Source of the DNA: Actinomycetota bacterium
GTDB lineage: Bacteria > Bacillota > Desulfotomaculia > Desulfotomaculales > Desulfocucumaceae
Length of the DNA: 34,996 nucleotides
NCBI GenBank assembly: GCA_023475565.1
Contig: JAMCVT010000062.1
Span: 1 to 34,996 of the forward strand
Direction of reading: 5' to 3'
The notes beneath the pieces were generated by a model. That model saw only the letters and a program-made list of their open reading frames with translations, searched no databases and was not told the DNA's origin. Made by a program: the position numbers and the translations under genes. The stretch's first letter is position 1. Each line of letters begins with the position of its first letter. Of the stretch, positions 26,037 through 28,295 are shown in pieces.

Positions 26037-27605
26037 CTAATCAGTCATATAAGATCCAAACAGAGCCTTCCAGTGGGCCGTGGCTGCTTTGACATCCCCG
26101 GCCCGGTGATAGTTTATGCCCTGCTTGGCCAGGCTGAAGGACTCGGTAAGCACCCGGCTGAACCTTCCGAAGGTATTGATATTGGAGTAAATATAGTCGT
26201 CAATGTATGAGCCCGGCTTGCCCGGGTCAGCTATAAAGGGCGACTTATTTTGAGTCATAAGAGTATAGGCGTTTCTGAACCACAGGTAAACAGACTCGAA
26301 GGAAAGCCCGAGATTGACCCTGGAGGCTATGATGTCGGTAAGAAGCTCCAGATGGAGATTATTTATATAGCTGCAGTTAGACCTCTGCCACGCTTTAACC
26401 AGGCGCAGGAAGGGCAGGAAGGCGGGACCGTTTTTTTCAGCGGCCTTTTTCATCCACAGTTCAGGCGCCGCCGGGTTTCGGGCTAGCCAGAATCCCCCCT
26501 CGGTGCTCGGTATAAACAGCTGCACCTTTCCTTTTTCCATGGCGGCCAGCACAGGAATTATATCAAATTCCACCCCGTGCGTAACTACACCTATCCGCCC
26601 CCTGGAAGACACCATTTCGGTGCCCGGTGACTCCCTGGACAGAAACCTTTTAAAGTCCTCCAGGGTCTCCGGAACGCTTTTTTCCTGGCCCCGGGGGGGT
26701 GACATGACCGCTATTATGTCTACGGACTGCATCGGCCTGATCATGGCGCCCCTGGAGAAACTTCCGCTATAGTGCACCTGGCGGACATACATATCATAAG
26801 CCTTCTCCAGTATGTGGCACAGATTCCGGTATCCCGCCGACACTGCTTCCAACTCTGATTCGGCCAGTGTGCACTGGTCCAGTATTCCCTCCAGCTGCCT
26901 GTCCAGGACTGGTACCTGGGCAGAGCAGGGAACTGCCAGGGGGGGAAGGTCCGGCTCGGAAAGCTCCAGGCTTGCGTCTTCAATGCCTGCCGGGGAATTA
27001 AGGGGGCCGCCGGTCTCCTCTAAGGGGGGCTGTACGCTTTCATCAACAAACCCCAGGCTTTCCATGGCCACTTCGTATATGGGAACCTTGCCCACCCCGG
27101 ACAGGTTTTTAACTCCGATAAACCGGGAGACCATTTCATTGAAACTTTTTATAAAAGGCTTGATCATTTCCATGGTGGACTCATCGGTCAGTATCTGGCT
27201 GGGAAGGGCATGGTCAATCAAACGGGAGCACCTGTCCACGGCATTTCCTATATAGTCGGTTCCGTTATTATCTATTTTCGTCACAATTCCATGGCTAAAC
27301 ACCGATTTTGTCCGGAATAGAAGCTTTTCCCTGTCTATTTTTTCAACAAGCTCCAATGAAGCCAGCATTCCCTCCAGGGGAGTGTTAAAGGCGGCGATCA
27401 GCAAATCCCCGATGTTTTTAACAACCCGTCCCCCGTACCGCCCGCAAATATCGGCCGCCATTTGGTTGTGAGCAACCGCCAGGCTTACCCTGCGGGATTG
27501 TTCCAGGTCTTTCTTGCTGCTGGTTGAGTCCATAAGACTAAAAAAAGCTATGCAAAGGGACTCTATCTTCCCCAGTTTTTGGTATTTATAGTGTAGGAAG
27601 GCCAT
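26037..27605 (-). CDS. Class III cyclase homology domain fused to CD-NTase domain
   Basis: ATG 27605 has GGAGGTG seven bases upstream, giving 522 residues. Residues 15-180 form a class III cyclase homology domain: FFSLMDSTSS aligns with the metal loop FxDIxGST, KNIGDLLIAAF supplies Asp67, and GNAVDRCSRL matches GxAVNxAxR. Residues 190-225 are an acidic, proline-rich linker. Residues 230-510 are a CD-NTase (cGAS/DncV-like) domain: SGSFSRGAMIRPMQSVDII at 280-298, FDIIP with Asp348, then helices FLPFLRLVKAW and NNLHLELLTDIIASR and a final IADPG. One catalytic Asp is Ser at each site (Ser23, Ser294), so activity may be altered or lost. It follows the YvlD-like gene, and its product is unknown. 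Confidence 0.75.
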   Translation of the reverse strand: MAFLHYKYQKLGKIESLCIAFFSLMDSTSSKKDLEQSRRVSLAVAHNQMAADICGRYGGRVVKNIGDLLIAAFNTPLEGMLASLELVEKIDREKLLFRTKSVFSHGIVTKIDNNGTDYIGNAVDRCSRLIDHALPSQILTDESTMEMIKPFIKSFNEMVSRFIGVKNLSGVGKVPIYEVAMESLGFVDESVQPPLEETGGPLNSPAGIEDASLELSEPDLPPLAVPCSAQVPVLDRQLEGILDQCTLAESELEAVSAGYRNLCHILEKAYDMYVRQVHYSGSFSRGAMIRPMQSVDIIAVMSPPRGQEKSVPETLEDFKRFLSRESPGTEMVSSRGRIGVVTHGVEFDIIPVLAAMEKGKVQLFIPSTEGGFWLARNPAAPELWMKKAAEKNGPAFLPFLRLVKAWQRSNCSYINNLHLELLTDIIASRVNLGLSFESVYLWFRNAYTLMTQNKSPFIADPGKPGSYIDDYIYSNINTFGRFSRVLTESFSLAKQGINYHRAGDVKAATAHWKALFGSYMTD

Positions 27606-27660
27606 GTTGTACACCTCCGATAAGCTATGGTTCATTTTGTCACTGCACCCATACCGTTTT

Positions 27661-28005
27661 TTAGTCGTGGTCGTTCACCAGGCCGTTCAGCACCCAGCTC
27701 ACCAGGCTTGTGATGATAGCTCCCCAGAAGGCCCCGCCGAAGCTGTACACGTGAAAGCCCGGCACCAGGAAGGCGGCCAGCCCAAAGGTAACGGCATTGA
27801 TGACAAAAATAAACAGCCCCAGGGTAATGGCGGTAAGGGGGAAGGTAACAACAAGAAGTACCGGCCTGATCAGGGTATTGACCGCTCCCAGGACCAGGGC
27901 CGCAATAACAGCTGAGAGAACTCCGGATATGTATATACCCCTTAGAAGCCAGTCCGCAGCTATAAGAGCAGCCGAGTTAACCGCCAGGGAAAACAACCAT
28001 CTCAA
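27661..28005 (-). CDS. YvlD-type four-helix membrane protein (phage holin 4 superfamily)
   Basis: The product has four membrane helices (about residues 5-20, 28-48, 58-80 and 88-110) and the family text GAVNTLIRPVLLVVTFPLTA then LGLFIFVINAVTFGLAAFLV. Members are called mycobacterial 4TMS phage holin IV, though bacillary YvlD is not a phage gene. TTG 28005 with GGAGGCG eight bases upstream gives 114 residues beginning at RWLFSLAVNSAAL. The in-frame ATG at 28020 lacks a ribosome site. It is 55 bp upstream of the cyclase/CD-NTase gene on the same strand. Role unknown; as a small membrane protein it might be an effector, but this is speculation. Confidence 0.75.
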   Translation of the reverse strand: MRWLFSLAVNSAALIAADWLLRGIYISGVLSAVIAALVLGAVNTLIRPVLLVVTFPLTAITLGLFIFVINAVTFGLAAFLVPGFHVYSFGGAFWGAIITSLVSWVLNGLVNDHD

Positions 28006-28295
28006 TTTAAACGCCTCCATTTTTTTATTTTTTATGATATTCTATAACAGCGCCTGCAAATCCTTTACAATATATATAGCTTTACCTCCGGGCCTTTCGG
28101 CGGCGCATCCGCAAATTGATTCCAGTGTGCAGGCGGTAAATGCCGGAAATAATATCTGTAGCGTGAGAGTACGTCCCGGTAATATCGGTATATGGCGGTT
28201 ATGGCAGGAAAAGTTGTGGGCCGGGTGGAAGGGAATATAGTTTAAAATATTTTTTCCGGGGCGCTCTAGATTATGTCTCCGGATCAGGAGATGCC

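Follow-up and report, generated by a model that had tools for sequence, protein, structure and literature searches.

A conserved family of bacterial proteins joining a class III cyclase homology domain to a degenerate CD-NTase domain

Degenerate GGDEF domains bind GTP and control the adjacent EAL domain, and pseudoenzymes with the nucleotidyltransferase fold act as regulators in animals. A CBASS locus is recognized by a CD-NTase adjoining a Cap effector, and a Pycsar locus by a pyrimidine cyclase with a cyclic-pyrimidine-sensing effector alongside. The CD-NTase fold comprises a Pol-beta-like nucleotidyltransferase core and a helical lobe. Among CD-NTases, the D73N and D75N variants of BcCdnD are inactive, and D73N was still crystallized with ATP and pppApA (PMC13424991). 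In the class III adenylyl cyclase Ma1120, a Lys and an Asp specify ATP; the enzyme is active with Ala at the transition-state Asn site, and changing this Ala to Asn abolished activity (PMC4215837). Catalytically inactive cNMP cyclase domains have been proposed as nucleotide binders in vWA-ternary conflict systems (PMC7159879). Neither a CD-NTase/cyclase fusion nor a bacterial pseudo-CD-NTase turned up in the literature we searched, which excluded most subscription papers.

We analyzed a 34,996-nt stretch of a bacterial contig (JAMCVT010000062.1, assembly GCA_023475565.1), which we refer to as the window. The open reading frame at 26037–27605 (reverse strand, stop codon counted) is real, and ORF calling, Pfam, PADLOC, PDB searches, and an AlphaFold2 model together describe its product as a 522-residue fusion of a cyclase homology domain (CHD), a linker, and a putative pseudo-CD-NTase. 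A GGAGGTG ribosome site lies immediately 5' of the start giving this length (ATG at 27605), and a longer in-frame ATG at 27635 is a second possible start. The CHD spans residues ∼12–182 (27060–27572, reverse strand) and the CD-NTase domain residues ∼234–520 (26046–26906, reverse strand). Between them lies a disordered linker (residues 190–229; 26919–27038, reverse strand), which was modeled with very low confidence (pLDDT 26–42, within a model of pLDDT 75.5) and evolves fast (omega of 0.34–0.69 in three close pairs). In one genus the linker is ∼100 residues longer (L071:8296-10143, L120, and L118), mainly Ala, Ser, Gly, Thr, and Pro. The relative placement of the two domains carries no confidence (pTM 0.56), so an allosteric path between the halves is not visible in the model.

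An initial annotation, made from the window alone, had proposed that a class III cyclase-like and a cGAS/DncV-like fold are combined in this protein. Both fold assignments were confirmed, with Pfam, PADLOC, PDB searches, and AlphaFold2 in agreement; residues 230–510 fell inside the nucleotidyltransferase fold and residues 15–180 inside class III cyclases. For the CD-NTase half, Pfam SMODS matched residues 236–387 over its curated cutoff (E = 6e-9), and PADLOC "Cyclase" (oligonucleotide-cyclase) models spanned residues 242–519 (E = 8e-30). A single-sequence PDB search reached the CD-NTase 9sa5 (E = 7e-9), a 10-sequence family profile matched this BcCdnD structure at E = 5e-11, and the model of residues 233–522 aligned with CdnD structures over 279 residues (Z 25.5, rmsd 2.9). 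NCBIfam CBASS cyclase models match the fusion proteins only far below their curated cutoffs. For the CHD, residues 13–76 resembled Pfam Guanylate_cyc below its cutoff (E = 0.011), which is reached by three other members of the family (L071, L121, and L123). The single-sequence PDB search returned the class III cyclases Rv1900c (E = 3e-5) and Ma1120 (E = 7e-5), the latter rising to E = 9e-14 with the family profile, and the model of residues 11–182 aligned with Ma1120 over 163 residues (Z 21.6, rmsd 2.4).

A survey of distribution and synteny, which the initial annotation had proposed as a check, recovered the full-length fusion in 15 genomes of anaerobic bacteria, at clade-specific loci. Nine belong to the window's own order (including its source genome, which has one copy) and six to a single family, f67, from a different class of this phylum. 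Presence is patchy (9/113 genomes of the order and 6/83 of the other class), and all 15 carriers have an uninterrupted reading frame. No additional full-length fusion came up in samples of 398 and 399 genomes of the phylum. A pattern scan of named genome contigs gave seven loci, all from the window's order, with carriers including the Peptococcaceae bacteria BICA1-7, BRH_c4a, and BRH_c4b, Desulfocucumis palustris, and Pelotomaculum terephthalicicum and relatives; it missed f67, and since this one narrow scan was the only coverage outside the phylum, absence from other phyla is not implied.

Phages, viral contigs, and plasmids held no full-length match, and the plasmid matches covered the CD-NTase half alone; a mobile or phage gene was rejected on these results. 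In the CD-NTase tree, the fusion halves formed one clade (support 100/100) apart from the phylum's canonical CD-NTases and from a glnA-linked group described below. The fusion is monophyletic, and both half-trees are in taxonomic order. The cyclase tree shares its main splits with the CD-NTase tree, and pairwise identities of the two halves correlate at 0.95.

The neighbors in the window are Na/Pi transporter, HtrA, response regulator, histidine kinase, YvlD-like, and PP-loop genes. By clade, the fusion sits with Na/Pi transporter, HtrA, and two-component genes in f1, with his genes in Pelotomaculum-type genomes, and with chemotaxis genes and groESL in f67. No effector recurred beside the fusion gene in the 14 loci compared, which bears out the earlier remark that no recognized CBASS effector adjoins it. 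PADLOC, run on ten window proteins, found no defense partner and matched only HtrA, to general protease domains. On these two results we rejected a CBASS or Pycsar locus; the CD-NTase does not adjoin a Cap effector, no cyclic-pyrimidine-sensing effector lies alongside, and the substrate residues of the cyclase are of the adenylyl type. Because the trees track taxonomy, the housekeeping loci are fixed by clade, and no effector recurs, the data speak for vertical inheritance with losses over a mobile defense cassette.

The gene upstream of the fusion encodes a YvlD-like protein with four transmembrane segments (27661–28020, reverse strand; Pfam Phage_holin_4_2, E = 5e-31) and adjoins the fusion gene within the same genus only. 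The gap between the two is ∼55 bases in the window and several hundred in two congeners. An operon with this gene as a membrane effector was rejected owing to the absence of the short gap in the two congeners, and the YvlD-like gene is probably not a functional partner. The source genome also encodes a further full class III cyclase of the membrane type, which passes the Pfam cutoff, and four cNMP-binding proteins over cutoff; a cAMP circuit in this cell is plausible, though not tied to the fusion gene.

Alignment to BcCdnD equated S294, D296, and D348 of the window protein with Asp73, Asp75, and Asp123, placing Ser at the first catalytic Asp with the other two retained. The residues named in the initial annotation (S23, D67, S294, D296, and D348) and their substitutions were correct in the translation and this alignment. 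The complete triad of an active CD-NTase (DxD ... D/E) is present in none of the 15 fusions. The first position reads S,P,T,E,E,Q,P,P,P,S,S,S,A,A,D, with Asp in a single protein. The third reads D,D,G,S,S,V,L,L,M,R,R,R,R,R,K, with Asp only in the window protein and the one closest to it. The second is Asp in 14 and Glu in the remaining one. The first and third columns hold seven and eight kinds of residue, against a column mean of 3.8, and 11% of domain columns reach seven. Part of the nucleotide pocket (G281, S/T282, and D296) is kept. Judged from these columns, the CD-NTase half appears to be the catalytically dead one across the family. Because the D73N variant of BcCdnD is inactive and could nonetheless be crystallized with its nucleotides, loss of catalysis with binding retained is realistic. 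One f67 protein (L123:1495-3153) is the sole fusion with an intact DVD motif and has Lys in place of the third Asp; it is perhaps closest to the ancestral state.

The cyclase half presents a different picture. In the 15-protein alignment, the first metal Asp is present in 13 fusions, K63, D67, and D117 in all 15, and R128 in 14 (Lys in one), so that 13/15 have both metal Asp residues together with the ATP-specifying Lys and Asp. The transition-state Asn is replaced by Asp (D124 in the window protein) in all 15. Since Ma1120 is active with Ala there, Asp124 alone is no proof of lost function, and the PDB search alignment places His at this site in Rv1900c; the substitution could weaken cyclase activity in all members. 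The cyclase half looks competent across the family, except in the window protein and the member most closely related to it. The window protein retains K63, D67, D117, and R128 and has S23 in place of the first metal Asp, and thus departs from the residue set of active class III adenylyl cyclases.

The nearest relative of the window protein (in G002) is 82% identical and has Gly at the first cyclase Asp; these are the only two of the 15 without it. The pair has changed at 8/40 cyclase columns that are otherwise invariant, versus 2/35 in the CD-NTase half, and is set off by a long branch in the cyclase tree. Both halves are under purifying selection, with omega ∼0.1–0.2 (CHD 0.10–0.12 and CD-NTase 0.12–0.21 in three close pairs); between the window protein and its relative, omega was 0.12, 0.21, and 0.69 for the cyclase, CD-NTase, and linker, respectively. 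The window protein is constrained, yet its residues suggest that cyclase activity has probably been lost too. Given the 8/40 diverged columns, the role of its CHD may differ from that in the rest of the family.

Other degenerate CD-NTases occur in the phylum. Six genomes of the order encode a second family (∼277 aa) beside glnA, in many cases with a COG2384-type methyltransferase nearby (L073:13108-13941, which lies in the window's source genome at G000:C79:35110-35940 and also appears as L002/L098; and L099–L103). Its DxD is replaced by S-x-K, S-x-R, or T-x-R, the third Asp is kept, and the members form a separate, fully supported clade. Descent of the fusion from the same genome's glnA-linked CD-NTase was rejected, as the two groups are separate clades, each fully supported. 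In another genome, a truncated glnA-linked pseudo-CD-NTase with a 129-aa open frame lies downstream of an intact glnA (L104; G013:C1:930111-930431), which suggests loss of the gene there. We also noted three stand-alone CD-NTase-like proteins with degenerate motifs (NxN or TxD; L014:1357-2241, L051:1489-2376, and L131:1462-2325), two of which sit between housekeeping genes such as aroB and isoaspartate methyltransferase. Pseudo-CD-NTases seem to be recurrent in the phylum.

The explanation we favor, at a probability of about 0.5, is that the family is an adenylyl-cyclase-like protein with a pseudo-CD-NTase as nucleotide-sensing or regulatory module, and that the window's lineage carries a double pseudoenzyme. 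The fusions would be soluble class III adenylyl-cyclase-like proteins in which the C-terminal CD-NTase has turned into a noncatalytic regulatory module. This module would use what is left of its pocket to bind a nucleotide or some other trigger, and binding may then alter, through the linker, the dimerization or activity of the CHD, with control presumably running in that direction. The CHD has, in 13/15 members, the residues that would make cAMP, the presumed product, from ATP. The window copy is most likely a double pseudoenzyme because its cyclase half also lost the first metal Asp; it would most likely serve as a nucleotide binder, regulator, or partner rather than a synthase. In its lineage, the protein probably produces no messenger and either just binds nucleotides or targets some other cyclase. 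The initial annotation had offered that one half senses a nucleotide and controls the other, or that both are pseudoenzymes. Comparison with 14 relatives assigns these to different levels: the apparently dead CD-NTase and competent-looking cyclase agree with the former family-wide, and the loss of the cyclase Asp would confine the latter to the window pair. The near-invariant D296 counts against this explanation, as the CD-NTase half could still carry out some metal-dependent reaction.

Both halves could instead be noncatalytic throughout the family, leaving a nucleotide-binding scaffold or adaptor that makes no second messenger. This would account for the Asp at the transition-state position and the broken CD-NTase triad in 15/15 proteins, as well as for the loss of D23 in the window's lineage, and has a precedent in the inactive cNMP cyclase domains proposed as mere nucleotide binders in bacterial conflict systems (PMC7159879). 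However, the metal Asp pair and the ATP-specifying Lys/Asp persist in 13/15 members over large divergence, which is difficult to reconcile with an inactive enzyme, and Ma1120 likewise lacks the Asn yet is active, with His in Rv1900c; we consider such a scaffold unlikely, if far from negligible. The CD-NTase half might, conversely, be an active but unusual nucleotidyltransferase using one or two carboxylates, as D296 is replaced in a single protein only (by Glu) and D348 persists in the window pair. This is very improbable, with the first Asp lost in 14/15 and the third in 13/15 to many different residues, and with a single D-to-N change at the first or second Asp sufficient to inactivate BcCdnD.

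An antiphage system resembling Pycsar or CBASS, with the CD-NTase half sensing infection and the cyclase product activating a distant effector, is suggested by the use of both folds in antiphage signaling and by the patchy occurrence of the gene. We regard it as improbable: the housekeeping loci are fixed per clade with no recurrent effector, PADLOC gave no defense partner in the window apart from the HtrA match, and the trees track taxonomy, with no full-length phage or plasmid match and none in viral contigs. The earlier idea of a separate, defense-related system thus gained no positive support. That the gene is decaying, or a chance frame without function, is barely credible; the window copy has indeed lost catalytic residues in both halves, but the frame is open in 15/15 genomes, and a pseudogene was rejected by the omega of 0.1–0.2 in both halves.

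Returning to the adenylyl-cyclase-like protein with a pseudo-CD-NTase module, a more specific version, possible but doubtful, is that the dead CD-NTase is a nucleotide- or RNA-sensing domain of an adenylyl cyclase, lineage-wide and outside phage defense. If true, two second-messenger systems would be joined in one chain, and together with the phylum's other degenerate CD-NTases at housekeeping loci, this would amount to repeated domestication of an immune fold. The family presents a conserved combination of two known folds with one half apparently dead; the sequences suggest that an immune-signaling fold was given a new task in sensing or regulation. A dead CD-NTase half next to a kept cyclase site, in a vertically inherited family, makes it possible to ask directly whether a cGAS-like fold controls bacterial cAMP synthesis and what it senses. 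Genome tools may attach the name "CBASS cyclase" to proteins of this kind, which lack both the active site and the locus.

Compared with known systems, the C-terminal half resembles CBASS CD-NTases of clades C and D (BcCdnD 9sa4/9sa5, EclCdnD 7ljl, and PaCdnD 6p82) in its whole-domain fold (Z 24–25), SGS motif, W..NP motif, and C-terminal helical lobe. It differs in that the catalytic Asp set is broken in all members and a cyclase domain is attached, at a locus with no Cap effector, HORMA, TRIP13, or E2/JAB neighbor. The N-terminal half is like adenylyl cyclases of the Ma1120/Rv1900c type in fold (Z 20–21), in the metal Asp pair and Lys/Asp of 13/15 members, and in having the transition-state Asn replaced (Ala in Ma1120 and His in Rv1900c); unlike these, the window pair has lost the first metal Asp, and the partner is a C-terminal pseudo-CD-NTase. 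Pycsar pyrimidine cyclases share the soluble class III cyclase fold, whereas the fusions have adenylyl-type substrate residues, an attached CD-NTase, and no Pycsar-type effector beside them. Inactive cNMP cyclase domains of vWA-ternary systems have other partners and no CD-NTase, in contrast to the fusions, which carry one. The likeness to degenerate GGDEF domains is one of idea only, a second-messenger synthase fold taken over for nucleotide sensing and control of a neighboring domain, which would be realized here with unrelated folds and another messenger.
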